64,000 bases of DNA. It comes from Zingiber officinale (Eukaryota > Streptophyta > Magnoliopsida > Zingiberales > Zingiberaceae). Of this stretch, positions 4,468 through 64,000 are shown one piece after another (within the stretch, counting starts at the first letter, position 1; each line of letters starts with the position of its first letter). The stretch spans positions 248,001 through 312,000 of the forward strand of contig NW_024589898.1 of NCBI RefSeq assembly GCF_018446385.1, given 5' to 3'. Position numbers and translations under genes: made by a program. The notes below the pieces were generated by a model, which did no database searches, was not told the DNA's origin, and worked only from the letters and a program-made list of their open reading frames with translations.

Positions 4468-5143
4468 TTGGTGGATGCACCAATTCAGAGCGGTACCCGC
4501 TTTGATACCACTTGTTGGATCATAATAACACTAGGGGGGGGGGGGGGGGAATAGCTAGCGATCGTCGAGAATTCGAAAATCGAATCGAGTATGCAGCAAA
4601 AAATTAAAAGGCACAACGCTAACACAAACTAGTTTTACTTGGTTCGGAGTCTTCGTCGACTCCTACTCCAAGGCTCGCACTCGTCGAGTGTTTTTGTTGG
4701 GCAATTCACTAGCAGTTCGAAGAATAATTACAAATGTAAGTACAAGAATTCTTTAAACAATATCGACAACAGGAACATAAACTCGAGTCGCAGGTTGTCG
4801 GAGAAGCCTCGCAGCATCGCAAGAGCAGTGCGCATTAGAGCAGCCGTAGAATAATTTGTTGTTCTTTGCTCTAGGTGATGACCTCCTTATTAGGAAGCTG
4901 GGGCACCCGGATCCCTATAATTTGTTGTTCTTTGCTACAGGTGGTGGACTCCTTATAATTTGTTGTGGAAGAAGATGTAGTGGAAAGAAAAGGGAGGTCT
5001 TCCAAGAGGTTAGGAGGTGACAGTGCCAAAAAAACTCTAGGTTAATAGGGAACCAAGAACTCTGTCAAAATTCACCTAAATCTTTGGGGACCTCCTCTTT
5101 ATCTAGAAATTCAATCCGTTAACCCATAAATGATAACAGATTG

Positions 5144-6545
5144 TGTAGGATCGAGACGCGCTAGAGGGGGGTGAATAACGCTTGTGACATTCATGTTCAT
5201 TTTTAAAACTTCGGAGAGAACGTAGCGGAATAAATAAAGAGACGAAAAGTCAATGCAAATAAATCCAAGATTTACTTGGTTCGGAGCCTATGATGACTCC
5301 TACTCTAAAAAAAAGGTAGATCCGCTACCTTAGCGGCCCCCCTAGTGTCGGCCTCACGGATATGGAGGGAGGTTCATGCAGGTACACAGGCCATAGGCGC
5401 ATGGAGGGGTAAACCCCAGGTCGTCAGTTCCTGAGAATCGGCCCCTGGCCATTACGCCAGAGATACCATGCGCCCACCGTCTGCGCTACGCCCTGGGGGC
5501 ATGACTCCTACTCTAAAGCCCACACATGAGAGTGCTTTCGATGAGAAATCATTAATCAATAGAAGAATACAAATACAACTTCGAATGATTACAAGTAATT
5601 TGAACAATAAAAATACCAACGACTTTGGAGAATGAAATCTTCAGCGTAGTCATCGTCGGAGCAGCTTTCGGGCATCACAGAAGCTTTTTTTGAGCAGCAC
5701 ATAAGAGAAGAACTTCTTTGGATTGCTGTTATTGAGCCATTGGTCGAAGCCTCTTTTTATAACCCATTTCAGGCGCCTAGAACCGCTCCAGGTGTCTGGA
5801 CCGTTGATGTGGGTTTGGCCAGTCATCGTGCTCCAACTCAACTTCGGGATAACTTTTCTGGTTTGGGTGCTCGGTCCAGCTCCGAATGCCTAGGCCGCTC
5901 GGGTACCTGCGGCACCCACTCGGGCGACACTGGTCCAGGCGCCTGGACTCTCATTTTTCACACTTCTCTTTCCTGCAAAAAAAAAAAAGAAGAGTTAGTT
6001 CAAACAAATAATATGTAAAGAACGATAAGATTTGACAACATTCGGACTGTCCAGTCCTAACTTTGAGTTTCGTTGAAACTTTAGGTTGGACCGACGCCTA
6101 CTATTCCCTCTTTGAGGAACGCGCCCTCACCTACTTCTCTTAGGAGAAATTATTTTTTATCAAAACGGTCATCTAGATCGCCTGGACTTTTATTTAGTGT
6201 TCGAGACTTTAGGACTTTATGCCGAACATCTGATCCACGATCCGTTCAGTCTCCCACCTGACGTCTGCGACCCCTAGGATTTTCACCTATAGTCCTCGAC
6301 TTTAGGATTTCGCCAAAGTCCTCGGCTCGCTAAAACTTTGCTCAATCTCCCTGACCATAACTTCGTTGTCTAACCGCAGCTAGGACTTTCCATCTACCTA
6401 ACCGCAACTACGACTTTCCTTTATCTAAGATTACTTAGAACTTTCCTACATATTTAGTTCAACTTATTAGATAATAAGATAACTTAACTTCCTTTTATTA
6501 TTATTAAAACATAGATTTAATTGTCTGATACTCCTTAAACCAACA
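5144..6545 (-). mobile_element. Solo LTR (family B), minus orientation
   Basis: A 1.4-kb LTR with TG...CA ends flanked by near-identical 5-bp duplications, GATTG (5139-5143) and GATTA (6546-6550), and no internal region: the product of LTR-LTR recombination. Read on the minus strand it has palindromic GGCGCC-type boxes (about 5770-5945), a TATA-like box near 5753-5764, the first arm of the conserved hairpin at 5275-5279 and the C-rich tract by the end at about 5157-5170. A SINE interrupts it at 5310-5500. It lies in the LTR of element A, so it is younger than A. The imperfect duplication suggests some age. Confidence 0.72.
5310..5500 (-). mobile_element. tRNA-derived SINE with 17-bp target duplication
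   Basis: The 17-bp direct repeat starting ATGACTCCTACTC flanks it exactly (5293-5309 and 5501-5517). Read on the minus strand the body starts GCCCCCAGGGCG, has an A-box-like TAGCGCAGACGG about 12 bases in, a B-box-like GGCCGATTCTC about 60 bases on, and ends in a T run just before the duplication, a 3' end known for several plant SINE families. Length 191 bp. The insertion falls in the stem-loop module of solo LTR B. I do not know the family name. Confidence 0.8.
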
Positions 6546-6672
6546 GATTAAACTAAAGGGTTACAAATATTGAACCTGGATTTAATAATCCGAAACCCAA
6601 TAAATATAAGAGATTTGGATTTCACATTTTCAACTTTCAAATAAATCTACTTAATAGGAATAATAAAATCCA

Positions 6673-8120: not shown

Positions 8121-8129
8121 ACTAAAGGA

Positions 8130-8425
8130 TAAATCACTCATAATTACGACAATATCGTGACCGTGATCCGATTGTAATTGGTTATGATCCCTTTTTGGAT
8201 TTACCACCCCTTCTAAATTATAATTTAGTTCGAAGAGGACAGTCGGAGGTCGTCCGGAGATGACCGGTGGCGGACAAATGACTAGGTTGCTGGACGCCGA
8301 GAGGATGACCTCCAGGAGGTCTCCAGATATTTTCTCTAAACTAAACTATAACCTAAAAGGAATGATAAATTTAGAAAAAATTATAATTAATTATGATCTC
8401 ATTATAATTATGAGTAGTCAGTAGT
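8130..8425. repeat. Foldback / MITE-like inverted repeat
   Basis: The two halves are long imperfect inverted copies. The left arm starts ACTCATAATTAC (about 8130) and runs through CTAAATTATAATTTAG (near 8212); the right arm, reverse-complemented, starts ACTCATAATTATAAT (about 8425) and runs through TTTTAGGTTATAGTTTAG. A GC-richer core at 8225-8330 separates them. No clear target duplication was found, so class is open; a non-autonomous DNA transposon is likeliest. Confidence 0.5.
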
Positions 8426-8450
8426 CCATCTTTTAATTGAAAAAAAAAAA

Positions 8451-8602: not shown

Positions 8603-8650
8603 AGGTGTGATTTTTAAGAAATTTGTAATTTTAAATGTCTTGGAAAGGTT

Positions 8651-8677
8651 AAATAATAATAATAATAATAATAATAA
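8651..8677. repeat. (AAT)n microsatellite
   Basis: Nine or so uninterrupted AAT units just downstream of the 53-bp tandem repeat. Confidence 0.9.
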
Positions 8678-9420: not shown

Positions 9421-9421
9421 T

Positions 9422-11210: not shown

Positions 11211-12265
11211 TGTTGGAGCAATCTGGGTACCCTAGGTTTTGTTATTTGGCCAAAGATTTAAGTTAGGTTTATTGTTATATTTGATATGCATTGTCAGTGT
11301 GCAAGATACAGTTACAACAAGGAGAGTCCAAGTGTGATCTTGGCAAAGGAGAAAAGTCCAAGGGTGAGTCTTGGCGGTGTAAGTCCAAGTATGTAGTCTT
11401 TGCAACGTAAGTCCAAGTGTGAGTTGACAATGGATAAAGTCCCGGAGGTGCGACCTCTTGGTAAAGGAAGACCCGACAATAAGGATAAGACCGAAGGAAG
11501 CTCTAGAAGGTAAGGCGTGAATGATGGGGAGCATCCGAGGGACGCGAGACTGATGAAGGAGGCTAGAATGCTAGGTCTAGGTTGTGCGGGCAAGGACGCG
11601 TGCATGAGAGATTGTACTCGGGGTAAAATTCTAGGTTTAGGGTTTTACTGTAGCAATTACTGTAGTAGTGCTGTAGTAGTCAACTAGTGTTTTCATCAGT
11701 TGACTGATAGCGAACATAATGTCTCTGTTCGCTCAACCCATGTGAAACAGTCGACTGATATTTTTACTAGTCGATTGGTATCGAGTCGTTGGTCTATAAC
11801 GGTCGAATTCCACTTAGTATCAGTCGACTAGTGGTTTTATCAGTCGATTGGTCGCGGAAAACACAACTATGTGTTTCCTCCCGAGTTCTATTTAATAGAA
11901 CTTGTGGTGCTTGGCCAAGGTTGACGAAAATAGAGGTGGTTAACCCCTATTAGAGTCTCCAAGGTCTTCTTGAGTGATCAAGAGCTTGTGCGAGTTTGTG
12001 GCAAGGTTTCTCCACCCACAAGGAGCTACTCGAGCTAGCCGGAGGTTTTTCGGGGAGTTATCCACCGACGGATTGGGATCGTCCACCTTACGGATAGTCG
12101 TGGAGTAGGAGCTTCATCTCCGAATCACGTTAAACAACGTGTTAGGTTTGCCTCTTTTTGTTAGTGTTTGTCTTGTATTTCCGTTGTGCACACTAATCAT
12201 TGTAAGAAGCGACGTTTTGGGTAAGATGCCATTCACCTCCCTCTAGCGGCGTCAAGGTCCCAACA
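11211..12265 (+). mobile_element. 5' LTR of element C
   Basis: Starts TGTTGGAGC and ends CCCAACA, followed at 12268-12279 by the tRNA-iMet-type primer site TGGTATCAGAGC. Inside: a set of AGTCGACT-type palindromes (about 11675-11860), a TATA-like box at 11889-11898, the hairpin module at 12099-12129 with outer stem CGTG/CACG and inner GGAG/CTCC, and a C-rich tract near 12233. Length 1055 bp. No second copy of this LTR is in the window. Confidence 0.75.
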
Positions 12266-14267
12266 AGTGGTATCAGAGCTAGGTCGCTCTTCTACGAACA
12301 AATCGTCGAGGGAGCATAGCGCTAGAGGAAGATGGAGTCAGAAGGCCCGCTTAGATAGGATATCCGGATCCCACCTCCATATGACCGAGAAGACTTTAGG
12401 TATTGGAGGTCTCGCTTGGAGATTTGGTTCTAAATAGATTGGGTTTATTGGATGGCATTGGAGGATCCATTCGAAGCTTCGACAGACAAGAAGGGAAAAC
12501 TCCTCCATCCTCGATATTGGACCAAGGAGCAAAGGGAGTAATCAGAGGCGGATAAGGAGGTAACGAAAATTTTATTGAATTTATTGCCCCCTAACGTTTT
12601 GGTGAGTGTAGGTAAATTCGAGAATGCAAGTGACCTGTGGAAAAAGGTAATTGCATTTCATGAAGATCCTACAAAACTCCAAGTAGTGAAGGAACCCAAG
12701 GAGAATGACTCATTAGTTCAAGAGGAAAAGGACTAATCAATTGTTAACACGTGCTCAACACCTGAGGAGGAGAAGGAAGGTGAGGAGGCATCATCTATAT
12801 CTTCAAGGGAGGAAGAAGTGGAATCGTCCACATCATCAAGTGAAGGAAGAAGAGTAATATAAGGAAGAGGAGATCTTTGAACCTCAACCCTCCACCTCAA
12901 TTACCAAGAAGAACGCAAAGGACCATATCAAATGCTTTAAGTGTGGTAAGATGGGGCACTACAAGAGTAGATGTCCTTCACTCAAGAAGGTAAAGGAGGT
13001 AAACCCTAAACTCACTAAAGTTAATTTAGAAACTAATGTGAGTTGTAAGAAGAAGAAGGAGAAGAAACATATTAGGTGCTTTACATGTGGTGAGTGGGGT
13101 CACTACCACATAAAAGTGCCCAAGGAGAGGAGAGCTCAAGAAATTGGCGCACTTGAAGAAATGAGAAAAAAAAGAGGAGCTCAAGTCAAGGAGGAACTTC
13201 AAAGGTAAAAGGGAAGGTAATCTCTATTTTAAAATTTAATCCAAGTTCTAATTCTTATATGCTTGTTAGAAATAATGTAGATTATTTACCCAAGCATAAT
13301 CATGGATTTATGTACAATGATAGGAATAGAGTTAATATAGGTGATAACCCTAGGAGACCTATTCATGACAAATCTAGTAAGGGTAGACCTAATAAGACTC
13401 AAACCATTTTGCTTAAGGGAAGGAAAATAGGTGAAAACCTAAGCATAAATCCCAAGAAGGGGAGACATATGTCTAGAAAGGTGGGTAGGTCTAGGGATGC
13501 CCAAGTTGGACATGTTGATTCAAGGGTTAGAACCCTAGAATTAGAAAATCAAGCCTTGAAGGTAAGACTTGAAGAAATAGAGAAAGACCTAGATAAGTTC
13601 ATTATTGGACCTAGAGGACTTGATATGTGTTTGGGTGGTCAAATATCTAAAAGTGTCAAATTGGGTCCCTTCCATGCCAAGTGGAGGTCAAGTGCTAGGG
13701 TGACATATGACATTGGTAAGGGAGGTGTGACAAAGGACAAGGGAGAGTCATCCAAGGCCAATAAGAAGGAATATGCTAGGGTGACATATAATTATGACAA
13801 CGATGAGGTGTCCAAGGTGAAGGACAATAATAAATTAACCAAAGACAAGGTGTCTAAGGTTAAGAAAGTCAAGTTTATAGGCCAAGTGTCACCTATGGTA
13901 CACCATGTGAGTGTAGCCATAGTGGATGAGTCACCAAGGGAGGTGATTAAGGTTAAGATTCCTAAAGTTAGGAAGAGCCCCTGGGACCCATGGTAGATGT
14001 GTTACCAAATGTGCAAAGTGGTTAGGAGATGGACTTAAGTCTCTAACCTAGTAGATTGACATAATTGGGATGTGTTTCATGCATTGAAATATGAATTGGG
14101 TTCATAGTACATGAAATTAGTTTTTGATGTATAGATGTCATATAAACTAATATTAGGGATACATTATGATTTAGTATGGGCAGATACATTAAGAGGAAAC
14201 CAAAACTAGGACTTTAGGTGAAAGTTCAATTGAACCATTTAGCTAATTTTAAATTTTAGGATCTGTG

Positions 14268-14301: not shown

Positions 14302-14303
<2 letters not shown>

Positions 14304-14529: not shown

Positions 14530-15860
14530 ATGTGCCCCAGAACAGGGTTGAGTTGGTTAGTGCGGAGCAGAATTGCTACCATATGGTAAGAATTTGAATT
14601 TTAACAAAGCCGAGGGAAAAAAGTGTTGGTGCAGGTTGCACTAATAATCTGGTTTTGATGTATGATAAATAAGTTAAAGTTAGATATGTTGTTTATCTAA
14701 CCTTTCTACCAAGCATGCAGGAGTTGACTGGTCTAAATGACCTGATACTAGGTTGAAATCCAACTAGGTCCGTGAGATTCGATAGCTGGTGGGAAGTCCA
14801 GATAGGTCCGCGGAGCCCGATATCTAGCGGGAAGTCCGATTGGGTCCGCGGGACCTGACAACCGACCGAAGTTCAGTTGGATCTGCGGACCTAACAATTG
14901 GCTTGAAGACCTGGTGGGTCAAATGCAAGTCAAGTGGCTGCAGTTGGTAAGTGGAGGTAATCAACTGGAGGAAAGATCTAGTGAGGATGCGCTCCCCGTT
15001 GAGGGAACTGTAGGCGTCGGTTCAGCTTATAGGTCTATTTGGGAAACCTAAGTTGAGATCTTGACTAGATCCTGGTCTCGGGGAGATAGGATCTAATTAC
15101 TACTCATTTTATTATGTTGTGTTAACTCTATTTTGTAGGGTAAAAATATTTTCTATTACCTGGATTAACCTTTTCTGCAGGAAAGAAGCTATTGAAGAAA
15201 AGGGGATTCCGGGCGTCCGGAGTAGTTCGCCTAGGCGGGTGTCCCGGGCAGTCCGGGCACCCGGAGTTGGTCCAGGCGTCCCGATCCTAAAATTCATCTA
15301 CAATATGAGGTGGAGCGCGTTGGCTGGCCGAGCCATGTGGTTTAGGCGCCCAAAGGGGTTCTAGACACCCGGAATGGGCCTATTTAAAGGCCTTCGACCA
15401 GGAGCTTCTACACAACAACTGCTACGACTTTCACTCGCTCGGTGATCCAAAAAAACTCCTGCGACGTTGTGACGCTTCTCCGACAACCACAGATCAAGAT
15501 TTCTCACTTTCTTTGTTGTCAGTAATTTTCATATATAGTTCCTGTATTCAATTTGTAACCATTCGAACTGTTAGTGGATTGTCTAATGAAAGTATTCGAC
15601 GAGTGCGGACCTTGGAGTAGGAGTCGTCGAAAGCTCCGAATCAAGTAAAACTAATTTGTGTTAGCATTATCTTTTTTACTTTTGTTTTCGGTTGCGTAAC
15701 TTAGTTTTAAATCAAATGTTTCGAAGATCGTTATTCACCCCTTCTAGTATTTTTTCGATCCTACAAAAAGCCCTTCTTGCACTGATCAATTGTAGTTTCA
15801 TAATTTATCTCCTTATAGATATTCATGAGATCGACCATGTGAGACCATTAGGATGGTAAC
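14530..15860 (+). mobile_element. SINE copy split by solo LTR D
   Basis: The head (about 14530-14618) matches the head of the neighbouring SINE at 15881: GTTGAGTTGGTTAGTGCG against GGGCTAGTGGCTAGCGC, then a degenerate B box and AAAGCCGAGG against AAAGTCGAGG. After the LTR, 15771-15860 resembles that SINE's tail (TTCATAATTTATCTCCTT against TCTATGATTTATTTCCTT). So the solo LTR at 14624-15765 seems to lie inside a SINE. The likeness is moderate and by eye. Confidence 0.5.
14624..15765 (+). mobile_element. Solo LTR (family D)
   Basis: TGTTGG...CTACA ends with a perfect 5-bp target duplication AAAAG (14619-14623 and 15766-15770) and no internal region. It contains GGCGC/GGGCACCCGG boxes at about 15205-15370, a TATA-like box at 15381-15390, the hairpin module at 15611-15645 (outer CTTGG/TCAAG, inner GGAG/CTCC) and a C-rich tract at about 15737. 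Length 1142 bp. Confidence 0.85.
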
Positions 15861-45560: not shown

Positions 45561-48500
45561 AGGGTCAATTTGTTTGCCCGAGGAGAGTTTATATGTTCAT
45601 CGGGGGATGTTCGTCTGCACTTTTTCATTATGTTCAAAAATTAAATGAAATACATGAATGAGTTACATGCATACTTGTTCAAGTTCTATAAGACTACAAG
45701 TGGTTCGCGCTCAAAGGTCGTTCGAGATTCCTCCCATCCACGTCCTGGAGATAGTAGGAACCCGAAGCGAGCTTTTGTATTACCTTATATGGTCCTCCTC
45801 ATTGTGGTGCCAACTTACTAACATCTCCGACAGGTTTGATGCGCTTCCATACTAGATCACCGACTTGGAAGAACCTTGGGATTACCCTCCTGTTGTAGTT
45901 CTGTCTCATCCGTTGCCGATATGATGTAAGGCGGGCTACTACTCTATCATGAATTTCTCCTATAAGGTCCAGCTCTATAAGATGCCGACCTGAATTACCA
46001 TCATCATATAACCACCTCCGATTAGATTCCACCCCAACCTCTATAGGGATTACTGCTTTTCCACCATACACCAACTGAAAAGGAGTTATGCCTGTAGCTT
46101 CTCTGAGAGTAGTACGATATGCCCACAATACACTAGGAAACTCAGCTACCCAGCTACCACCAACAAGATCTAATTTAGTTTTAAAACCTCTAATAATTTC
46201 CCTATTGGTTATCTCTGCTTATCCGTTGCTCTATGGGTAAGCCACAGAGGTAAATGCTTGTGTAATACCATATCCCGCACACCATTCCTTAATCCTTTCT
46301 CGTTGGAATTATCTTCCATTATCAGAAACCAGCTTGTGTGGAATACCAAATCTACAAATGATATGTTGCCATAGGAATTTGATAATCGCGTGTTCAGTAA
46401 TCCTGGCCAATGGTTCAACCTCCATCCATTTTGAGAAATAGTCTACAACCACCAATAGGAATTTCCTTTGTGCTATTACCAAAGGAAAAGGGTTAACTAT
46501 ATCCATACCCCATTGATCAAAAGGACAAGATACTATAGAAGTTTTCAATAGACCAGTGGGGTCATGTGTAATGTTCTGATGCTTCTGACAAGACATACAT
46601 GTTCTTACCGGTCGAGCTGCATCTTCTTGTAAAGTAAGCCAAAAATACTCAGCCAATAATATTTTGCGAGCTAAGGATCTCCCTCCTATATGACTGCCAC
46701 AAGAACCCTGATGAACCTCTTGGAGAATATATTGTATATCCTTCGGCCCTATACACTTGAGCAGAGGACTAGAGAAAGCCTTTTTATAAAGCTGATCGTC
46801 CACCATAGTATATCGGACATCCCTCTTCTTGAATATCCGTGCTTGTTCTTCATCTTCTGGTAGAACACCTTGCTGAAGGAATAAAATGATTGATGCTCTC
46901 CAATCACCTTGTATTTCTGCATCGGTCTGTCGTTCAATATAGGATACCAACACAATCTGCTCTACAGGCCTATCCAAGTTCCAAGGTATTATAGTTGAGG
47001 CCAATTTAGCCAACTCATCTGCCACTTGATTTTCTGATCGAGGGATCTTCTATATAGTTACTTCTTGGAACTCTAATTTCAACTTGTCAAATGCTTCTGC
47101 ATATAATTTAAGTCGCTTATTATTGATTTCAAAATTTCCTGTTAACTGTTATGTTACTAGCTGGGAGTCAGAATACATCCAAACTCGAGCGGCCCCTACA
47201 TGCCGAGTGACCTATAACACTGCAATCAGTGCTTCATATTCTGTTTCATTATTAGTGGCTCTATAATTTAACTGGATAGAAAGTTGCATCCGATCATCCC
47301 TTGGTGATATAAGAAGAATCCAAATACCACTACCTTGTCGAATAGAAGATCCATCCACATATATTTTCCAAGTTCCATCTTCCTCTGGGCCTTGTATCTC
47401 TGTTATAAAGTCAACCAGAGCTTGTGCCTTAATTACCGACTGAGACTGATATTGTATATCATATTCACTAAGTTCCGTCATCCATTTGATTAACTGCCCG
47501 GATGCCTTAGGATTAAGAAGAACTCGACCGAGAGTGCTGTTAGTTAATACTATAATTGCATGCGATAAGAAATATGGACGTAATCTTCTAGCTACTAAAA
47601 CCAATCCATAAGCCAACTTCTCAAGTATAGTATAGCGACACTCGGCTCCTTTTAGTAAATGACTCAAAAAGTATACAAGTTGTTGTTTCTTTCCATCTTG
47701 CCTTACTAGAACCGAGCCTACAGCATGCTCATTTGCTGACAAGTAAATCCATAATGTTTCTTCTACTATAGGCTTGGCTAATACGGGTAAAGTTGACAAA
47801 TAATTTTTTAATTCTTAGAATGTCTGGTCACATTCTTCATCCCATTGGAATTTAGTAGCCTTCCTTAGTATCTTGAAGAAGGGGAAGCTTCGGTCAACCG
47901 ATCTAGAAATGAAGCGAGATAGCATGTGATTTTCTTACTCGATTTGAGTCACCATCAGTGGGCCCTCCCGCTATCATGTTAATGTTGCTCCAGGCGGCAT
48001 TACTTCTGTTTTCTTCTTGTCGAGCGGAGGATGGTTCTTGTTGCATCTGTTCGGGCATTTGCACCTGTGTTTGCCTAGTGGGGAGTTGTAACACTACGAA
48101 TTGTGGTTCAGTTGTTCTATACTCCAGTTTGAGGGGACTATTCTGTCGTAGATAAGATGGCTGATTAGGAAATGGAGCATGTCGGCGATACCGAACATTA
48201 CTCATTTGCTGATTCTTCAGAGCAAAGCAATTCTTTGTGTTGTGGGTCTTCATCATATGATACATACACCATCTTTGTGGAGCTGACTGCGACATCTCCA
48301 CATGCTGAATTGCTTGTGGTCGTGGCTTCGGTGGATGATGCAGAGGACCTGCTTGTGGTCCTCTAGGGGGTTGAACAAGAGCCATAGGACGTTCATTAAC
48401 TGGAGTAAGATTAGGTAGAATGCCCTCCTTTTTTCGAGCAGCTTGAGTTTCTTCAACATTAATAAATTTAGTAGCTCTTTCAATTAATAAATCAAAGTTG

Positions 48501-49382
48501 GTGGGAGAATTTCTCACCAGATCTTTAAAGAAGTCACTATCATTGAGACCTTGAGAAAAGACACTCACCAGAATTTTAGTAGTGACAGAAGGAACATCAA
48601 TAGCCACTTGATTAAATCTTTTAATATAAGCTCTAATACTTTCTTTGGGCCCCTGTTTAATAGAGAAAAGACTCCACGGAGTCTTTTGATATCTCCTGTT
48701 ACTAGAGAAATGGTGGAGAAATACCTTCCTGAAGTCCTTGAAATGCCTAATAGAGTTTTCTGACAACCTTTTGAACCACCTCTGAGCAGCACCTCCGAAA
48801 GTGGTTAGGAACATTCGACACTTGACTCCATCAATGAATTGTTGTAATAGAGCCACGTTCTTGAACTTGAGTAGATGATCCTCTGGATCTGTTGTTCCAG
48901 AGTATTCTCCAATGTTTAGGTAAGAGATCATCCAGTACCCTCTGAGAGAAAGGAATGACTATTCTCTCAGGGGAACTATCATTGGCCACCATTTTCCCCT
49001 TACGCTTGTCCCTTACTGGTGCTTCACTAGAGGATTCCTGAAGTATTGGTCGACGTCCTCCTTCTTCAATAGGAGTATGGAAAAAGGGCCGAGGACGATG
49101 AGTGGGAGAAACAATAGCAGGAGGTATGTAAATGTTATCTTCCTCATCCATACCTCTTTCCCTTTGAGGATTGGTTGTAGAGATGGCCGGATTTACCGCC
49201 ATGGGTAGCATTCCATTAGTATTAGCTTGTTGTTGTTGTTGCAAAGCTTTCTGTACCCTTGCAGCGATGAGTAATTCTAGATCTTCTTGTGTTAAAGTGA
49301 CGATATGGGTTTTTCCAACGCCCTCCATCGCGAAGATTTAGATTCAGGTGAAAATTCCCACAGACGACGCCAAATTCGATCC
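44366..49382 (-). mobile_element. Ty3 retrotransposon, Tat lineage, internal region
   Basis: Read on the minus strand. Near the right end lies TTTGGCGTCGTCTGTGGGAA (about 49350-49372), the leader typical of Tat elements. Parts seen: gag, about 47900-49330, including a retrotransposon-gag core (EYSGTTDPEDHLLKF, then WFKRL) and an IAGGPTDGDS block; an RNase H region, about 47200-47800, with a second, archaeal-type RNase H start (KIYVDGSSIRQGSG) that marks the dual-RNase-H Tat lineage; and integrase, about 45800-47030 (HHCC-like start, DQWGMDIVNPF, FGIPHKLVSDNG). Protease and reverse transcriptase were not recognised. Broken, with several breaks. The tandem arrays lie on its 3' side. Confidence 0.85.
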
Positions 49383-51175: not shown

Positions 51176-54006
51176 TGTTAGTGTGATGCTAATTAGAAGT
51201 AGATATCCGTCTACCACTTATCATAAATTCACACTCAATTTGGGGATTGATAGTTCTTGTAAAAACCTAAACCACATGAATTCTAAAACATAAAGAACTC
51301 ACATATAAGAAATACATGAACAAGAAAATCTAGTTTCATCAATTAAATATGACATAAGAAAAATAAATACATAAACATAATGATAAAGAACCTGATTGAA
51401 GAGTCATGTCTTTGTCCTTTAGCCTCATTTAGAAGACCTTGAGGAAGAAGCGGAAGCAAACGGGGAGGATTTTCCAAGGGACTTAGGGGATGACAGCGCC
51501 GTAAAGCTTCTTGTCAATGGAGAATAAGAAACTATGTCAAGATTCTTCCCTAAACCCTTAGGGACCAACCTTATATATAGTGGACATCTATTATCAGCTC
51601 ATAGATGATAATAAATGTGAAACTATAGGTCCCTATATATAGTGAACATCTATTATCAATATATAGATGATAATAGATGTGGGGCTATAGGTTCTACACA
51701 TACAAGATTTACATCGAACAACCGAACCCAATAAGCCTAAGTTAGATCACTTTAATGAGTTCAATTTGTACTCATATGCATAACTTACAATTAAGCCCAC
51801 TAATTAGAGACAATAACCAACAATCTCTCACTTGGGCTATTTGTGAGTTGTATATGGAACACAAGTAAAACTTTAGTTGATATCAAACTTTATGGGTACG
51901 GAATACTCCTGTAAATAATCTGGTCCATTAATTTCATTGGTATAGGACTAAAGAGGTCATAGCTACTGTATATGATCATAACAAGCCCCAACAGTAATCA
52001 CAATATCAATGTCATTAATGACATAGATCAAGATGTAGATGTGTAGAGTGAAAATTATATGAAATATGATCAGTACATGTCAATTTTCAATTGGTCCTAA
52101 GATGACCTCAAAAGAGGTCAGATTATATTTGCAAAATACTTTATGCTAAACTGCAATAGCAAATCATGATCCAAACTGTATGATTCAAAAAAGGAATCTA
52201 TATCTTATTTACAAACACCAAATACTAAACAACCATAGTAAATAATGATATCATAGTCAGAGTGTCAAACAAACATATAAATTCCCATTAATGTTTTGAA
52301 CTTTAAGTACATACAATAATCAAAATAAATGTTTATCTTTATTAATCAACATAGAGCAATAAATACAGACTTCTACTAGATGAGTTCTTCTTCCATAAGA
52401 AGGACTCATATATCCACAACATGCGCATGAACACCTTAGGTACCAAGCCTTTGGTGAGTGGATTGACGAACATGGAATTTGTGTTGATGTGCTCTACCAT
52501 AATCTAACAACTCTGAACTCTTTTTTAACTACTAGAAACTTGATGTCGATGTTTTTAGACTTTGACGAACTAGGATTGTTCTTGGCATAAAGTTCTGTGG
52601 CTTTATTATCACAGTATATCCTTAATGGTCTGTCAATGCCATCAACGATCTGCAATGCTGTGATGAAGTTTCACAGCCAAATCCTGTGATTGGATGCTTC
52701 ATAGCATGCTACCAACTCTGTCTCCATAGTAGAAGTGTCTACTAGCGTTTGCTTGTTCCTCTTCCAAGATATAGCCCCTCCAGTAAGCATGAAATATATA
52801 GCCCGAAGTATATCTTCTGCTATCCAAGCATCCAGTAAAATCGGAGTCTGAATATCCAATCACCTCTAGATGATCTGATCTCCGATACGTGAGCATATGT
52901 CCTTTAGTTCTTTGCAAATACCACATCACTCTCTTTACCACTTTCTAGTGCGATGGTTCTGAGTTACTTACATATCTGCCTAATATCCCTACTATAAATG
53001 CTATATCTGGTCAAGTACAAATTTGTGCATACATGAGACTTCTCTCTGCTGACGTATATGAGAATTGTTCCATCTCCTTTATTTCAAGTTCAAGCTGTGG
53101 ACACTAATGCAAGTTAAACTTGTCACCTCTTGACACAAGTGTGACACTAGGTGTATAGTTCTGCATACCATACCTTATAAGCACCTTTTCAATATAGGTT
53201 TGTTGTAAAAGTCCAAGAATACCTTTTGAACGATCATGATAGATCTATATGCCTAAAACAAAAGATGCTTCACCAAGATCTTTCATTTCAAAATTACCAG
53301 ATAGAAATGACTTGGTTTGATGCAGCATATCCTTATTATTGCTCGCAAGTAATATATCGTCCACATACAAAATAAGTATAACAAATTTGCTCCCACTGAA
53401 CTTGACATATACACACTGATCAACAGGGTTCTCTTTAATCTAAATGAGATAATCACTTGATCAAATTTCTGGTACCACTGAGGGGATGCCTGCTTTAAAC
53501 TATAAATGAACTTCTTTAATCTACATACTAGGTGCTTTGAGTCTTTGCACCATATATATAGACTTCTCTATGTCTCCATTGAGAAATACAACCTTTACAT
53601 CCATTTGATGTAGCTCTAAATTATAATAAGCTACAAGTGTCATGATTACCCTAAGGGAGTCTTTCGTTAACACTGGTGAGAAATTTTCCTTGTAATCAAG
53701 GTCTTCTTTCTGAGTGAATCCCCTGTCAACAAGATGAGCCTTATACTTTTTGACATTGCCCCTTGAATCCTGCTTGGTTTTAAATATCCATTTACAACCA
53801 ACGGACTTCTTTCCTTCAGGCAATTCAACAAGTTCCTAAACGTTATTGTCTGCCATAGACTTCAACTCTTCTTGCATGGCGTTAATCCATCTTTTAGGGT
53901 TAGTGCATTATTTAACTTCTTGGAAAGATGTAGGATCACCTTCCAACCCTATGTCAAAATCATGCTCTTGGAGATAAACATAATCATGAGAATTTGTGGT
54001 TCTCCG
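51176..54006 (-). mobile_element. Copia retrotransposon (element J), minus strand, 3' part
   Basis: A 3' LTR spans about 51176-51822 (right end CCAACA), next to a purine-rich tract on the minus strand (51823-51838). The internal region holds a Copia RNase H (about 52670-52945, with GYSDSDFTGCLDSRRYTSGY) and reverse transcriptase (about 53400-53830, with GCKWIFKTK and HQMDVKVVFLNG). It stops at 54006, where element F was inserted. Broken, several breaks. Its LTR resembles that of element A. Confidence 0.8.
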
Positions 54007-55279
54007 TGTTGGTGTGGGAAGCATCTGACGATCGAACATAAGTTTTGATAATGGAAAAGGAGTCAAAATTAAGCTTATTTGTGATCTAACATATCTGATG
54101 GAGATTGCAGGAAAGTCCTAAGTGCTCTTAGGCAAAAGTCCTAGCTGCGGTTAGGCAAGGTGAAAACCCTAGGGGGTGGTAACCCTAGGTCCTAGGGGGC
54201 GGTAACCCTAGGTGGAGGAAAATCCCAAGGGGTGGTAACCTTAGGTCTTAGGGGGTGGAAACCCTAGGTGGAGGAAAATCCTAAGGGGGGGGGGTAACCT
54301 TAGGTCCTAGGGGGTGGTAACCCTAGGTGGAGAAAAACCCTAGGGGGCGGTAACCATAGGTCCTAGGGGGTGGTAACCCTAGGCAGAAAGTTCAGTCGGT
54401 CTGGAGGATCAGACTGCCACCAGGTAATTTCTCCTGAGGGAAGTAGGTGAGGACGCGTTCCCCGCAGAGGGAACAGTAGGCGTCGGGTCGACTTAGGGTT
54501 TCCGGTCGGAGATTCGAAGTCCGATGACTGTCACACTCTATATTCATACTGTTATTTATGTGCTAACATTGTCTTGCAGGGTATGTTGTTGTTTTGGGAC
54601 TAACATGTCTTGTAGGTACAAAAGGAATAAGCTAAGCCTCGGATGAACAGTATTCGAGGCGCCTCCATGGAGCTTGGAGGCGCCTTGGGTGCAAAGGAGC
54701 TGAAGTCTGCGCGGTAGTGCTGGAGGCGCCTTGGACCAGAGATTGGAGGCGCCTTGGATTGACTTGAAGGCGCCTTCAAGTGGATAAGTTGTGACCAGGT
54801 CCGTTCTGATCCACGCGGCTGACTCGGCTTGTTGGAGGCGCCTTGGATGGTGTTGGAGGCGCCTCCAGCAGTGCATAAAAGGAGCTCTCGAGCAGCAAGT
54901 TAAATCATCAATTCTTAAGCGAGCTTTTTCCATCTAGCTACTTACGAGAAGCTTCGGCGAAGCAACAACTTGACGCCGACGACCCGGAATTCTAAATATG
55001 ACATTTCACTCGTCGTTGGTATACTCTTTTATTACTGTTAATTGTACTTGCTTGTAAAAGATTTTCGATATTATAGTTGTTACCCATCGGAAGCGATCAA
55101 CGATCGCAGGCCTTGGAGTAGGAGTCTCCACAGGCTCCGAACCAAGTAAATATCCTGTGTCCTTCTGTGTTTTTCTTTTCTTTACTGTTTTCGCTGCTTT
55201 AACTCGAACAATTTATGAATTTGAAACGTGTGAAAGCCACGAGCACTATTCACCCCCCCTAGCGCTTCTCGATCCAACA
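54007..55279 (+). mobile_element. 5' LTR of element F
   Basis: TGTTGGTGTGGG start and CGATCCAACA end, followed by the iMet-type primer site TGGTATCAGAGC at 55282-55293. It contains a 57-bp minisatellite (54166-54385), seven GGCGCC palindrome boxes (54655-54867, the last as GGAGGCGCCTCC), a TATA-like box at 54873-54882, the hairpin module at 55112-55146 (outer CTTGG/CCAAG) and a C-rich tract by the end. 1273 bp. Inserted in the Copia element J. Confidence 0.85.
54166..54385. repeat. Minisatellite in LTR F, 55-59-bp unit, about four copies
   Basis: Units begin AGGTCCTAGGGGG at about 54187, 54243, 54302 and 54357, each followed by GGTAACCCTAGGTGGAG and AAAATCCTAAGGGG. CCTAGG palindromes recur at unit starts and middles. 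Confidence 0.85.
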
Positions 55280-56919
55280 ATTGGTATCAGAGCGAGGTAG
55301 CGTTGATCTGGTGTAACCACCAATCACGCATTTCTTTCGTGGTGTTTTCTATTTTTCGGAGTCGATTGGAATTAGCATAATTGCTATTTTCTAATCAAGT
55401 TCTTTTCGTTATCGAACTCTTTTCTCGAAGTCGGTGCAACACCACTCGAGAACATAATTTACCCTTATTTTCATACCGCACTACTAATCCAGGATCAAGT
55501 CCTGGGATATTCTTTTGTTATTTTTCTGTCTCAGATCTAAATGGCCCACAAGAAGGCTACAACACTGTCCATTCCCCGCTCTTCACCAGAGAGGACTTCG
55601 GTTACTGGAAGGGCAGAATGGAGAACTTCCTGAAGATCCAGTTCGAGAAGTGGATGATCGTCAAGACCGGATTTGAACTATCAACTAACGAAGATGGCAA
55701 ACCAACACCCTGCGAAGACTGGGATCCAACATTAATCAAGAAGGTGGAAGCAAATGCCAGAGCAATGTGTACCCTCCAGTGCGGATTGACGAAGGAGGAG
55801 CTAAACCGCGTCGGCCCATTCTCGAGCGCCAAGGAGCTATGGGAGAAGATGATCAAGCTTCACGAAGGGACCTCTGACACCAAGGTAAGTAAGAGGGACT
55901 TAATTTTTAAAAAATTATACAATATTAAATTGCAGGAAGGTGAGACGGCTGCCCAACTCCACGCCCGGATACAAGGTCTACTCAATGACCTTCATGCGAT
56001 CGGACAAAAGGTGGAGAACCGGGACATAATCAGGTACTCTCTGAACGCTTTTCCGAGGAACACCTTGTGGGCATCAATGGTAGATGCTTACAAGGTTTAT
56101 AAGGATCTTTCTTGCATTAAATTAGACGAGTTATTCTTCGAATTTGAGTTGCATGAGCAGATTAATGCACGCCCTACCGAGAAAGGGTTGGCTTTGGTTG
56201 CAGGTACAGGAAGAGCACGTGAATCGAAAACAAAACGTAGAACCAAGCCGGAGTCAGAAGAAGAACTAGATTCGGACGATGATGACGACGAGCTCACAAC
56301 CGAAATCATCAACCTGGTGAAGAAACTCTACAAAAAGAAAGGCTTCAACAAAAAGGATGTCAGAAAGGTCATCTAATCCAAAGAAGCCCAACCAAGCTCA
56401 AAGGTCAAATTCGAGGCGACGTGCTACGGGTGCAATCAGAAGGGGCACATCAAGGCGAACTGCCTGAACCAGAAGGATCCGAAGAAATCAAGGAGAAAGA
56501 AGGCCCTGAAGGTAACGTGGGACAAGTCCTCTTCTGAGGAATACGACGACGAAGAACTCGAGCAGACGAGTTTTCTCGCGTTGATGGCCTGGGACTACAC
56601 CAACGAATCAGGAAGCGAGGACGAATCGGAAGCCGAGTCTAAGAGAAGCCACAGATCCATATCTGTTTTCGAAGGGCCAAATCCCTCTGTAAGTACGAAT
56701 CGCCTTTACAGTTTAATTAATTATTTAATGCATAAAGTAGCTAAGTCAAAGTTCAGATCAAGTCACTTCTAAAGGAGGTAACATCCCTTAAAGAAGCGAC
56801 TAATAACGAATCCTTGACTGAATCTATTCAGACTGGAACCTCAACTCAAGTCCAAAAACTTGAGGAAGAGAATTCCAGCTTGAAAAGTCAAGTCAAGGAT
56901 TTGAAGACTACGTTGGAAC
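55280..56919 (+). mobile_element. Gag region of element F (Copia-like), part before the nested element
   Basis: Primer site, then a gag frame, about 55540-56380, with the UBN2-type gag core (REDFGYWKGRMENFL, then LWEKMIKLHEGTSDTK and VSKRDLIFKKL). An Asp/Glu-rich stretch follows, then a CCHC zinc knuckle CYGCNQKGHIKANC at 56422-56463 and an acidic tail. The region is interrupted at 56919 by element G and resumes at 61338. No pol in view. Broken, few breaks. Confidence 0.8.
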
Positions 56920-58015
56920 TGTTGGATCTCGTGGTTGTTTTGATGTGATCAACCTAGTTTAGGTTAGGTCCTGTTTGTCTGATCCCTGTGTCTAAGTGTG
57001 CAGGAGCTTAGGAGCGCAGGAAGTCGAGCGGTAGACGCAGCTAGCCAGAAGGACGGCACGGAAAGGGAGCCGACGGGATCGGTGCGTCCGAAGGACGAGA
57101 GAGTTGCGGAAGAGTACACCGGTGGACATGAAGAACGTGCGCGACATTCGAGGGACGTAAAGCCAGGACGGAAGACTGCTCGAGGAGAAGGCCGGGAATT
57201 GGGTTCGGGCGAGCCCTATTCCGGTTGGCTGAAATCACCCAAGCAAACCGAACCAGAGCAAGTCAACCGGGAGTTGACTTGACAAATGTTCGGTCGACCG
57301 AACGCCATGATCGGTCGACCGAACCCCTATCAACAGAAGGCAGCCGTTGGTGACACATCAGCAGACACGTCAACAACCAGCTGTTGGCTGATCGGTCAAC
57401 CAGACCCTCTGATCGGTCGACCGAACCAGAGATAAACCCAAGACTCAGTCAAGCATTCTGATCGGGCCAGCTCAGGGAAAGACCGTTGGCTGATCGTTCG
57501 ACCGAATAATGGGATCGGTTGACTGAACGTAGGCTCGATCCACACAGACTGCATCTGGACGGAAGGTTGGCCAAGTACGCAAGTTTGGTCGACCGAATCT
57601 GGGGATTGGTCGACCGAATCTGGGGATTGGTCGACCGATCCCTCTCGAGTCAAAACCTGATCTCGAAGATCAGGTGATCTGATAAGCTTTGGAACCCCCA
57701 TATAAAGGGGCCTCGAACAGCAATGAAAAAACAAGTATGTACTTTCATTTCTTAGCAACTTCTGTGCTTTCCAATTGTGTAAAAGGCTTCTCCGCCTTCA
57801 GAGAAGGAGACTCTACTAGTGCGCCTATTCAACCGCCTTGGATTAACAACTTTCTTGGTTGTAACCAAGTCAAAACCGCTGAGTCGTCTCTTTTATTTTC
57901 TGTTGTTTATTTTATTATTCTTGTTGCTTTATCTTAGAGTTGAAAGTTTGAGGAGGGTATACTTTTTGAGTTACAGGCAATTCACCCCCCTCTTGCCGGT
58001 CCCGCTGCACCATCA
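56920..58015 (+). repeat. 5' LTR of element G
   Basis: Holds about ten GGTCGACC-centred palindromes (57289-57650; best form TTCGGTCGACCGAA), a TATA box at 57701-57710, the hairpin module at 57836-57868 (outer CTTGG/CCAAG, inner ACAAC/GTTGT) and a C-rich tract near 57985. Confidence 0.88.
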
Positions 58016-58470
58016 AGTGGTATCAGGGCCCAACAGCCTCGGAAGGACTAACCGCCGTCTGAAGCACAAAGATCAGGACAATGGCCGGCGCGAACATTCA
58101 TCCCCCGAAGTTTGACGGAGATTTCGCTACATGGAAGCGAAAAATGGAGGTATTTTTTAAAACTAAATTTGATATACTCTTAATAATGAAATATGGATAT
58201 GAAGTGCCAAAAGACAAAGAAGAGTACAACTGGACGAAGAAGAGCAGGCTGATTTCGTGGCCAACGGAAAGGCTGAGTTCCACCTACTCAACGTTCTGCC
58301 GCCTCAGGAGGTAAGTCGGATCGGAAGCTACGACTCTACAAAAGACCTCTGGGAAAAATTCCTGGAGCTTCACGAAGGTACCTCCGAAGCGAAGCTTGCA
58401 AAGCGTGACATCCTCCGGATACAACTAACAAACCTCCGGATGAATAATGGCGAGAAGGTAGCGCAACTCC

Positions 58471-60281: not shown

Positions 60282-61332
60282 TGTTGGACCCCGTGGTTGT
60301 TTTGATGCGATCAACCTAGTTTAGGTTAGGTCATGTTTGTCTGATCCCTGTGTCTAAGTGTGCAGGAGCTTAGGAGCCAGGAAGTCGAGCGGTAGACGCA
60401 GCTAGCGAGAAGGACGGCAGGGAAAGGGAGTTGACGGGATCGGTGCGTCCGAAGGACGAGAGAGCTGCGGAAGAGTACACTGGTGGGCGTGAAGAACGTG
60501 CACGGCGTTCGAGGGACGTAAAGCTGGGACGGAAGACTGCTCGAGGAGAAGGCCGGGAATTGGGTTCGGGTGAGCCCTATTCCGGTTGGCTAAAATCACC
60601 CAAGCAAACCGAATCAGAGCAAGTCAACCGGGAGTTGACTTGACATGTGTTTGGTCAACCGAACGCCATGATCGGTCGACCGAACCCCTATCAACAGAAG
60701 GCAGCCGTTGGTGACACATTAGTAGACACGTCAGCAACCAGCTGTTGGCTGATCGGTCGACGGGACCCTCTGATCGGTAGATCGAACTGGAGATAAACCC
60801 AAGACTCAGTCAAGCATTCTGATCGGGCCAGCTCAGGGAAAGACCGTTGGCTGATCGGTCGACCGAACGCAGGCTCAATCCACACAGACTGCATCTGGAT
60901 GGAAGGCTGGCCAAGTACGCAGGTTCGGTCGATCGAACCTGGGGATCGGTCGACCGATCCCTCTCGAGTCAAAACCTGATCCCGAAGATCAGGAGATCTG
61001 ATAAGATCTAGAACCCCTATATAAAGGGGCCTCGAACAACAACGAAAAAAAAGTCTGTACTTTCATTTCTTAGCAACTTCTGTGCTTTCCAATTGTGTAA
61101 AAGACTTCTCCGCCTTCAGAGAAGGAGACTCTACTAGTGCGCCTATTCAACCGCTTGGATTAACAACCTTATTGGTTGTAACCAAGTCAAAACCGCTGAG
61201 TCGTCTCTTTTCTTTTCTGTTATTTATTTTATTATTCCTGTTGCTTTATCTTAGAGTTGAAAGTTTGAGGAGGGTATACTTTTTGAGTTACAGGCAATTC
61301 ACCCCTCTCTTGCCGATCCCGTTGCACCATCA
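60282..61332 (+). repeat. 3' LTR of element G
   Basis: Second copy of LTR G, with about eight GGTCGACC-type palindromes (60650-60960), TATA box near 61019-61026 and the hairpin at 61154-61186, where the inner stem is ACAACC/GGTTGT, one pair longer than in the 5' copy. Confidence 0.88.
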
Positions 61333-61337
61333 GGAAC

Positions 61338-63050
61338 GGTTCACTTTGGGTTCTAAGAATCTTGATCTGATTCTTGGAAAACAAAAAGCTGTTTACAACC
61401 GATCCGGACTTGGATTCAAAGCAAATAGAAAATTTCGATCTTATTTATCTTTAGTGAACAGACCAAATAGTAAAATAGTCCAAGCATGTGTACCTATGTC
61501 CAACTTAGTTAATCAAGTTGGACTTGGTCAATATTGGGTCCCCAAGGATCAAGTACACTACCTTGATAGACCATATCGAGGCTATGATCCAGGAGAGCCA
61601 AAAGAAAAACTGTATTAATAAAAAGATAAATCATCAAAAAAAAATAATTAAAATTTAAGTTAAATTAACATTAAATTAAATTAAATTAAAAACTTAAATC
61701 TAAGTTATAAATTAAAACATAAAAGGTAAATCAACAATATAGGAGGAGGCTTCAGAATAACTGACACCTCTAAAAATAACCTACCCGACAGGGCAACCAA
61801 AAGCAACCTACCCGGCAAGGTAAGTAGAACTAATTAGAAAGGGAACAAGTTTAACTTGACCTATGGTATTGGTGAAATTTTGGATGATAGTACGTTAGGG
61901 AAGTTTAATCTATGCATGTCTAGGAAGATATGGCTTCGACCTGGTGCATTTGGCTAAGTGGAACTAACCGAAGCTACCCTTTATGGATCATAACCAGTTA
62001 GACCAAAGTTTTGTATTAAGTTCAGTGGATCCTATTTGGAAAAACCTCGAAGGCATGGTTACTTTAATGATGCCCAAGTGACTCACCATAGCCCAGAAGT
62101 TTATCCAAAGAATGCCTATTTGTTGAGCCCAAAACTAAACCTGAATCTAACACAAAGTTAACTCAAACCCTATAATTGAACTCAATTCATCTCACAAAAT
62201 TATAGGATTCCCTGATTTGAAATTTAGATCGGGTGAAATGACTAAGGATTAAATTAATAATTAAAATCAAATAATTAAAAATCAAATTAATAATTAAAAA
62301 TCAAATCAAATCAATAATTAAATTAATAATTTAAAATCAAATCAAATTAAAGTTAAATCAAAATTAAATCAAATTAAAGTTAATTAAAATCAAATCAAAT
62401 TAAAATTAAATCAAATTAAAATAAAATCAAATTAAAATCAAATCAAATTAAAGTTAAATCAAAGTAAAATCAAATCAAATTAAAGTTAAATCAAATTAAA
62501 ATAATATTAAATTCTTTTAAAAACTTATTTAAAAATACTTTCAAAACTTATTTATTTTTTTTTAAAAAAACTTATTTAAAACATTCTTTTAAAAAAACTT
62601 ATTTAAAAATTCTTTTCAAAACTTATTTAAAAATTCTTTTAAAAAAAATTTATTTAAAAAAAATTCTTTTAAAAAAAATTCTTTTAAAAAACTTATTTAT
62701 TTTTTTTAAAAAAAACTTATTTAAAAAATTATTTTAAAAAACTTATTTAAAAATTCTTTTCAAAACTTATTTAAAAATTCTTTTAAAAAACTTATTTAAA
62801 AATTCTTTTAAAAAAACTTATTTAAAAATATTTTAAAAACTTATTTACAAATTCTTTTAAAAAAACTTATTGTAAAAATTCTTTTAAAAACTTATTTTAA
62901 AATACTTTTTAAAAAAACAACTTATTGTTAAACAACAACTTAGAGTTAAAATTTTTAAAATTCAAAATCATACCAAATCTGTGTGTACAAATTCAAATTT
63001 TTTAAAAGAATTTTCAAACCTAATGGAAAATGAATTTGAAATGAGTTTAG
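61338..63050 (+). mobile_element. Element F, internal region after the nested element
   Basis: 61338-61618 continues the gag side of F, with a QYWVPKDQ block like the closing YWVPK of element G's gag. From 61620 the sequence is non-coding and turns extremely A/T-rich (two low-complexity blocks, 62215-62940). No pol or 3' LTR of F appears before 63050, where another LTR begins. Confidence 0.65.
62215..62940. repeat. Two adjacent A/T-rich tandem blocks
   Basis: 62215-62515 is built of AAATCAAATTAAAAT variants (unit 10-16 bp). 62516-62930 is built of CTTATTTAAAAATTCTTTTA variants with a period of about 25 bp, some 16 copies. Both are strand-asymmetric and lie inside element F. Confidence 0.85.
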
Positions 63051-64000
63051 TGTTAGAACCAAAAGTAGCTAGAGGGGGGGGGGGGGGGGGGGGAATAGCT
63101 CGTCGCGTTCGCTCGTTGCTCGGCGTTGCTTGTTTCTTCCAAGATGTGCAGCGGAAATACAAAGAAACAATCACACAACGCTAACACGGTTGGTTTACTT
63201 GGTATCCACCTCACAAGAGGTGACTAATCCAAGGATCCACACAAACACACACACCCTCCACTAAATAAAACTCTCTTTTATGGTAACTACCAAGGGCGGA
63301 GAAGCCCTACAAGACTCAATACAAGAAGAGAGGGAAAGGATACAAGAAATACAAGCTTACAAGCTTACAATGAGTATAAACCCTAACCCTAGCTTCTCTT
63401 CTTGGCTTTGATCCGCCTCTTGACTTGGAGAACTTCCAAGATCCTTCAAGAACTGGCGATCTGAGCTTTGTGAGTGCTGTGGAGGAGCCGAGAGATCCGG
63501 AGGAATCGAGAAGAGGTTGCCAAGGAATCGTGCGCTGCGCCTTTATCGACGCCAACGGTCGGATCCCGATCGATTCAATGTTCCCAATCGATCGGGAGGC
63601 TTTGGATCGATCCACGGATCGATCCAGCGCCGCGATAACGCCGGATCGATCCATGGATCGATCCAACGCTTATCGTGGAAAAGCCCCAATCGATCCACCG
63701 ATCGATTGGGACATCTGGATCGATCCACGGATCGATCCGGAGGCTCGCTAGCAGAAGGCTTGATCGATCCACCGATCGATTCAGCCTCCTGATCGATCGA
63801 TCGATCAGCCTGGATCGATCCATCGATCGATCCAAAGTTGGTTTTTGCCCAACACCAAGTCCCAAGCCTACCAAACCAACACCGGTCAACCTTGACTGTT
63901 GGTACACCATGCCTAGCATCCGTCACCCTTGACCCGCTAGGACTTCCCACCAAGTGTCCGGGTCAACCTTTGACCCACTTGGACTTTTCTATTCATGCCA
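63051..64000 (-). mobile_element. LTR (family H), minus orientation, cut by the window end
   Basis: Starts TGTTAGAACC at 63051 with a 20-base G run at about 63074-63093. On the minus strand it has the hairpin module at 63198-63233 (outer CTTGG/CCAAG, inner CACCTC/GAGGTG), a TATA-like GATAAAGG near 63540-63547 and, upstream of that, eight paired GATCGATC modules (63558-63835). The far end and any target duplication lie outside the window. It was inserted in the A/T-rich interior of element F. Confidence 0.75.

Follow-up and report, generated by a model that had tools for sequence, protein, structure and literature searches.

A two-part hairpin with covarying stems stands before the end of the long terminal repeats (LTRs) of many Ty1/copia retrotransposons of the ginger genome, a structure that is well supported by the comparisons given below. 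It was recognised in a 64-kb window (the whole stretch of DNA analysed, G000:C117:248001-312000 of a genome of 3,090,333,446 bases; window positions are used throughout), in which the LTRs lettered A to H carry the hairpin or its remains, and it was then followed through LTR ends of the whole genome.

Hairpins of the window

By their internal loop, read in the sense of the element, the hairpins form three types: AGTA/GAA in type I (A, B, C, D and F), ATTA/AA or AAA in type II (G and the decayed E), and A(T/C)TAGT/GATA in type III (H). Those of A, B, E and H lie on the minus strand, and those of C, D, F and both LTRs of G on the plus strand:

4638-4672, minus strand: hairpin A, type I, CTTGG AGTA GGAGTC..GACTCC GAA CCAAG
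5275-5309, minus strand: hairpin B, type I, 5' outer arm partly decayed (TTTAG/CCAAG), 4/5 outer pairs
12099-12129, plus strand: hairpin C, type I, CGTGG AGTA GGAG..CTCC GAA TCACG
15611-15645, plus strand: hairpin D, type I, CTTGG AGTA GGAGTC..AGCTCC GAA TCAAG
43014-43041, minus strand: hairpin E, decayed type II relative, CTTGG ATTA GCAATCC..GGATTA, 3' outer arm not found
55112-55146, plus strand: hairpin F, type I, CTTGG AGTA GGAGTC..GGCTCC GAA CCAAG
57837-57869, plus strand: hairpin of the first LTR of G, type II, CTTGG ATTA ACAACT..GGTTGT AA CCAAG
61154-61186, plus strand: hairpin of the second LTR of G, type II
63198-63233, minus strand: hairpin H, type III, CTTGG ATTAGT CACCTC ttgt GAGGTG GATA CCAAG

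The first-pass annotation had placed hairpins at eight of these sites (A, B, C, D, F, G twice and H), all of which were recovered within one base; the first hairpin of G, which it began at 57836, is present and starts one base later. Hairpin E, which it had counted in part, keeps its 5' arm and part of the inner stem, and its 3' arm is gone. Its description of the carriers as eight otherwise different families was an overstatement, A, B, D and F having one hairpin class (AGTA/GAA, GGAG/CTCC). Since the window hairpins fall into only three classes, few paired changes occur at one homologous position inside the window; a selected RNA structure is supported by compensatory stem changes, a constant sense-strand loop and, in many loci, a place between a TATA-like word and the LTR end.

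Without a limit on position, the type II rule was unspecific in the window (weak matches on both strands, 13 on the reversed control), and the type I rule gave two additional A/T-rich matches on the minus strand. No match to Rfam 15 reached the gathering score in the window.

Typed hairpins at LTR ends of the genome

A test set was formed from the first 100 of 88,537 genome matches to an LTR end followed by the primer binding site (PBS) (CANNTGGTATCAGAGC), picked regardless of the hairpin and labelled with L-numbers; their last 260 nt were scored, and 99 of the 100 stretches are distinct. A hairpin of type I, II or III at 80-200 nt from the LTR end was found in 63/100 sites (30 type I, 16 type II and 17 type III), against 0/100 in the reverse complement, 0/100 in the reversed sequence and 0-3/100 in dinucleotide shuffles (20 rounds) of the identical 260 nt. 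Because the typed rule was written after reading these sequences, the count of 63 is no independent prediction. Among the 37 rejected sites, at least L044, L045, L071, L077 and L120 resemble decayed members. A second LTR-end pattern (TTCACCCCCC..PBS) has 25,230 genome sites.

A descriptor of structure alone (5-bp outer and 4-bp inner stem) was dropped as a test because shuffles score nearly as high as real LTR ends (63-78/100 in ten dinucleotide-shuffled rounds vs 87/100). Pairing by itself hardly exceeds chance, whereas the typed hairpin at its set position and the covariation of its arms do; equal pairing at shuffled positions, named by the first-pass annotation as grounds for giving up the structure, was thus nearly observed for pairing alone, but not for covariation.

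When the sequence identity of windows of the same size was compared along the LTR, the hairpin was among the better-conserved stretches in four groups. Windows of equal or higher identity, counting those that overlap the hairpin, numbered 13/282 in type III, 4/294 in type II, 5/271 in type I with CTTNG arms and 34/298 in type I with CGNGG arms. A search for hairpins with other middle pairs returned 149 places (23 in the control); the matches listed were mostly like single mutants of known families, with their 5' arms unseen, and the candidates were set aside.

Covariation of the stems

Covariation was judged by arm shuffles and by clustering on flanking sequence, as distinct from a tree-based statistic. 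The cleanest test used an anchor that demands no pairing, AGTA[G/A]G..GAA at 80-200 nt from the LTR end, which 33/100 sites contain. Their outer arms were paired in 156/165 cells, whereas shuffling the 3' arms among the 33 sites gave 113.7 paired cells on average and never more than 135 (5,000 shuffles); one of the sites, L077, was matched at the wrong GAA and scored 0/5.

Two patterns that leave the outer arms free were searched in the whole genome: one related to hairpin C (25,999 sites; reversed-pattern control, 4) and one related to hairpin F (38,606 sites; control, 17), with arm statistics drawn from the first 100 places listed for either pattern. These matches include 85 unique hairpins, in which 397/425 outer cells were paired (shuffle maximum 335, 5,000 shuffles), and sliding one arm by 1, 2 or 3 positions left 143, 68 and 131 of 425 paired.

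The 63 carriers were also grouped on flanking sequence alone into 14 clusters, with one hairpin taken per cluster. Outer cells were paired in 68/70 (maximum 64 in 5,000 shuffles) and inner cells in 55/56 (maximum 49); for type I only, 43/45 outer cells were paired, a value attained by 1/5,000 shuffles. The anchor test is the cleaner of the two because the clustered carriers had been selected by a rule that demands pairing.

The outer stem of the 30 type I hairpins consists mainly of C-G at position 1, G-C or U-A at 2, U-A or A-U at 3, G-C or C-G at 4 and G-C at 5, with 4 G-U and 4 unpaired among 150 cells. Arms altered on both sides include CTTCG/CGAAG, CTTGG/CCAAG, CGAGG/CCTCG, CGTGG/CCACG, and TGTGG with CCACA or CCACG. 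Type II has U-A or C-G as outer pair 2, A-U or G-C as inner pair 1, and C-G or U-A as inner pair 5.

Internal loop and predicted fold

The stems of type I are separated by AGUA in the 5' strand and by GAA in the 3' strand. The anchor that contains these letters occurs in 33/100 sites on the sense strand and in 2/100 on the opposite strand, where no position limit was set. These are the core letters of the sarcin-ricin (S/R) or loop E (bulged-G) motif of rRNA and 5S rRNA, a likeness at the level of sequence. The core is given in the available text of PMC8450098 as A3, G4, U5 and A6 facing G9 and A11, with A10 added as our interpretation of its numbering, and the AGUA/GAA core stands between two Watson-Crick helices in the window type I hairpins and in the 33 anchor sites. 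Type I departs from the motif in having G-C at the variable lower pair (2/12) instead of the usual non-canonical pair; according to the same text, a G-C juxtaposition at that place still allowed the base triple. Types II and III have other loops, although the type II loop (AUUA/AAA) could be a relaxed S/R-like one. The predicted fold of type I thus runs from the outer stem through the S/R motif and the inner stem to an apical loop.

Elements that carry the hairpin

The Ty1/copia domains were found as Retrotran_gag_2 in element F and as RVT_2 in L142 (downstream of L034), for these elements rather than for each LTR of the window. The Gag of F belongs to the clade that accompanies most of the tested carriers:

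55381-56373, plus strand: Gag of the F element, Retrotran_gag_2

Matches to this Gag were sought in the 1.45 kb that follow each of 51 distinct elements, and only the best match was scored, provided that it lay on the strand of the element itself. An F-type Gag was found in 34/40 carriers, the remainder being L010, L023, L024, L041 (best match on the other strand), L031 and L043. It was also found in 3/11 strict non-carriers, of which L013 and L044 are decayed carriers and L033 is a true exception.

Reverse transcriptase (RT) matches at 1e-5 were obtained for the carriers L142 (type I, CGAGG) and L143 (the L031 type, which also comprises L043 and has AGTA/GAA with a 3-bp inner stem) and for the non-carriers L149 and, weakly, L147; none was obtained in L141, L144, L145, L146, L148 and L150 at 1e-5, nor in L151 at 1e-6. 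The RT of L143 (downstream of L031) is 39.8% and 29.4% identical, in two pieces, to that of L142, and 38.5% and 41.1% identical to that of L149 (downstream of the non-carrier L046); because of these identities, the type I hairpin seems present in at least two distant copia lineages. The L019 element (L141/L151) has hairpins 6.8 kb apart and an F-type gag, and no RT match in the stretches fetched (1e-5 in L141, 1e-6 in L151).

A type II pattern with part of the outer stem fixed has 35,177 genome sites (control, 239), and among its first 100 places there are 17 same-strand neighbours 2.4-3.3 kb apart, apparently LTR pairs too close to hold pol. The LTR repeats of element G run from 57017 and 60378, and in its interior gag of the F type was matched twice and RT not at all. 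Judged by element G and the LTR spacing only, the type II elements appear to be short, with gag and little room for pol, and in this they resemble TR-GAG elements.

Complementarity to the primer tRNA

A PBS complementary to initiator tRNA-Met adjoins the LTR end in C and F (exact) and in G (one mismatch), as expected of Ty1/copia elements. The start of the initiator tRNA-Met has 71 exact genome matches, and both of the two that were fetched are tRNA-Met (CAT) according to ARAGORN. The primer-related features of the window are:

12268-12279, plus strand: PBS after LTR C, TGGTATCAGAGC, initiator tRNA-Met
55282-55293, plus strand: PBS after LTR F, TGGTATCAGAGC
58018-58029, plus strand: PBS after the first LTR of G, 1 mismatch
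58002-58008, plus strand: CCGCTGC near the end of LTR G, complementary to the tRNA-Met D-arm
63148-63156, minus strand: anti-D-arm box TTCCGCTGC in U5 of LTR H, tRNA match

With the part used by the PBS excluded, 39/63 carriers contain a stretch that can form 8 or more Watson-Crick pairs with the body of the tRNA; it matches the D-arm in 38 of them (TTCCGCTGCGC, whole or in part) and the T-arm in one. After shuffling of the carriers, 8 bp or more are attained anywhere in the tRNA body in 47/630 cases. The anti-D-arm box was found in 0/37 non-carriers; a different tRNA-complementary stretch, 9-10 long, is present in seven of these, matching the T-arm in six and the 3' half of the D-arm in L097. 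Counting the longest helix per LTR only, T-arm complementarity occurs in 1/63 carriers and 6/37 non-carriers. The motif CCGCTGC is present in 36/63 carriers, mostly at 70-107 nt from the LTR end and in four at 14 nt, and in 0/37 non-carriers. A U5 box of most carriers can thus pair with the D-arm of the primer tRNA.

Neighbouring features of the leader

Directly upstream of the CTTNG hairpins lies a second covarying hairpin, named SL2, which automatic picking located in 12/17 loci listed, with the arms GTACTC/GAGTAC, GTGGTC/GACCAC, GCGATC/GATCGC and TAGGTCC/GGACCTA. Among those that automatic picking missed, L071 has AAGTTC/GAACTT by eye, and L050, L070 and L104 have shorter or imperfect arms. 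Two examples are in the window:

15592-15606, plus strand: SL2 of LTR D, GTATTC gac GAGTGC, imperfect
55093-55107, plus strand: SL2 of LTR F, GCGATC aac GATCGC (GCGATCAACGATCGC)

Upstream of the hairpin in type II and III LTRs, for instance at 57760-57815, a further common CTCC..GGAG hairpin (GGCTTCTCCGCC..GGAG) was seen, which may be the first stem of the leader. In the family of C, the 3' outer arm has an alternative partner downstream, GAGGTTT or GTGGTTT, whose letters vary together with those of the arm: 8 bp (GAACCTCG/TGAGGTTT) in L034, L057 and L065, 7 bp (GAACCAC/GTGGTTT) in L082, 5-6 bp in most others and nothing above chance in L080. This alternative pairing might be a conformational switch.

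A TATA-like word was surveyed in at most three loci per group. It stands 143-156 nt before the hairpin in 10/11 type II loci shown and 208-240 nt before it in seven type I loci, is elsewhere or missing in the other type I loci shown, and was found in none of the three type III loci shown. As it lies downstream of such a word in many loci shown, the hairpin is probably transcribed. Mapping of the R region through type I copies that end in poly(A) was tried and abandoned, as they occurred at two genome places and gave no clear or interpretable set.

Other features of the window

Apart from the LTRs discussed, the window contains the following:

1868-4273, plus strand: hAT transposase pieces, DUF4371 and Dimer_Tnp_hAT
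44372-45590: tandem array with steps of 72, 76 and 147-148 bp
46312-48958, minus strand: Gypsy-type pieces, Retrotrans_gag, RT_RNaseH and integrase
52518-53937, minus strand: copia reverse-transcriptase fragment, 29-31% identical to that of L149, without an assigned LTR
62421-62952: short-period repeat array with many 11-14 bp steps

Possible roles of the hairpin

Folding is assigned to the sense-strand RNA because the loop is strand-specific, because the stems covary around fixed loop letters, and because inner pair 5 of type I is often U-G (12 U-G, 1 U-A and 15 unpaired in the 28 hairpins scored). In that RNA the hairpin would be one module of a structured 5' leader, in the order upstream hairpins, S/R hairpin, anti-D-arm box and PBS. 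The first-pass annotation had suggested a part in polyadenylation, packaging or first-strand transfer. The likeliest role of the hairpin, which we put forward tentatively and at somewhat less than even chances, is that of a recognition and spacing signal used by the Gag of the same element and by the primer-tRNA complex, in packaging of the genomic RNA and/or the start of minus-strand synthesis. This role is favoured because the hairpin precedes the PBS in the leader, goes together with a Gag clade and an anti-D box, and is kept in short elements that apparently lack pol; elements too short for pol would have to keep their cis signals in order to be mobilised in trans. We infer both packaging and initiation, the link to Gag being a co-occurrence with one clade.

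Several observations weigh against this reading. In ViennaRNA folds in context, the outer stem reached a mean probability >=0.5 in only 7/30 type I hairpins (12/16 in type II and 16/17 in type III); the S/R motif is not represented in the energy model, and without a bonus for it the folds speak against a dominant outer stem in type I. Covariation of the type II outer stem is weak, the observed value being attained by 46/2,000 shuffles, and type III gives no covariation information because it hardly varies. Among the 85 unique copies the outer stem has 17 G-U and 18 A-C cells; this count, tried as a test of the strand, shows no difference and gives no strand evidence, and the two being about equal, the argument for the sense strand is not based on it. 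L033 has an F-like Gag (33% identical) and no typed hairpin at its LTR end, L031 and L043, both tested carriers of their type, have no F-type Gag in the 1.45 kb, and the anti-D stretch at 8 bp is missing in 25/63 carriers.

Other functions in RNA have to be considered beside packaging and initiation. The hairpin may be a polyadenylation or R-region element that brings a far-upstream TTGTA-like signal near the cleavage site, or masks that signal in the 5' LTR, in the manner of retroviral poly(A) hairpins. We regard this as possible, although unlikely: in the loci shown TTGTAA-like words, and in many cases a TATA-like word, precede the hairpin, and AAGTAAA and T-rich sequence frequently come after it, but the poly(A)-ended type I copies, at two genome places only, form no clear set, and the available text of PMC3735527 reports that the packaging RNAs of BARE are non-polyadenylated. 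A lineage-wide R/U5 module of plant copia elements for packaging and initiation, in which the S/R hairpin would be read by the Gag of the element or by a host protein of the 5S-rRNA-binding type and be coupled to a U5 box capturing the primer D-arm, so that RNA choice and primer loading would become one step and the 3'-arm pairing of the C type would act as a switch, is doubtful as a whole. An effect on translation or export, the leader structure governing ribosome loading or nuclear export of the gag mRNA, would agree with the gag found in 34/40 tested carriers and with the gag matches of element G in the absence of an RT match; the place before the PBS suits RNA replication signals equally well, and we consider this function improbable.

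Two further explanations would dispense with an RNA signal or with selection on pairing. Shared ancestry alone would leave the stems paired through family kinship, with few independent changes; most of the tested carriers do belong to one Gag clade, and each outer position has just one to three frequent pair types. However, both sides differ jointly at outer positions 2, 3 and 4 of type I, at outer position 2 and inner positions 1 and 5 of type II, and at several SL2 positions, and one-sided changes would break the stems, so that we give kinship alone little credence. The least probable explanation, which we think very unlikely, is a palindrome acting at the DNA level, as a transcription-factor site or as a hairpin feeding small RNAs. 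It would fit the lack of a G-U excess over A-C in the outer stem of the unique copies, but the AGTA/GAA loop is fixed and strand-specific, joint changes of the stem letters would hardly be tolerable for a protein-binding DNA site, and U-G at inner pair 5 of type I also speaks against it.

Relation to known systems and significance

The closest parallel is the 5' leader of Ty1, which serves packaging, dimerisation and the start of reverse transcription; according to the available text of PMC4974528, it has in common with the ginger carriers the Copia superfamily, the initiator tRNA-Met primer, a structured 5' end and D-arm complementarity beyond the PBS, the last of which is present in 38/63 carriers as complementarity of sequence only. 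In Ty1 the additional complementary stretches, which match the T and D arms and, as described there, aid primer packaging and initiation, are placed 3' of the PBS, and the 5' end forms a pseudoknot, whereas the anti-D box of ginger lies in U5, 5' of the PBS. Unlike Ty1, the ginger carriers also have a covarying S/R-type hairpin upstream of this box. Retroviral R/U5 hairpins, such as the poly(A) and TAR-like ones, likewise stand close to the leader, within the repeated portion of the LTR, but belong to a different host and superfamily; no homology to them was seen, no test aimed at it having been made.

Conserved non-coding LTR elements across divergent plant copia elements have been described before (Benachenhou 2013, PMC3601003; Bousios 2010, PMC2829016); those in the available text are TATATA, a CAACAAA poly(A) site, palindromic boxes in U3 and an inverted repeat at the polypurine tract (PPT), and not this hairpin. 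The hairpin is likewise undescribed in the parts available to us of PMC12786077, PMC3735527, PMC4974528 and PMC4032725, and the terms stem-loop, hairpin, secondary structure and dimeriz do not occur in the available text of the first of these, a 2025 review. A literature search by the stem letters gave, among the matches listed, none related by title. We found no description in the open-access literature, outside which most subscription papers lie, and the hairpin may be in print elsewhere.

Judging from the available text of that review, few of the RNA signals that act in cis in plant LTR retrotransposons seem to have been mapped. To the first-pass annotation the present analysis adds the loop E-like motif, the second hairpin, the anti-D-arm box and the link to one Gag clade. 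With a definite prediction of a three-dimensional motif, tens of thousands of pattern sites and natural compensatory variants, the hairpin is a ready target for structure probing, Gag-binding and cDNA assays. It also provides an RNA mark by which solo LTRs and gag-only elements can be recognised and classed, and it offers a test of how elements that lack pol get mobilised.

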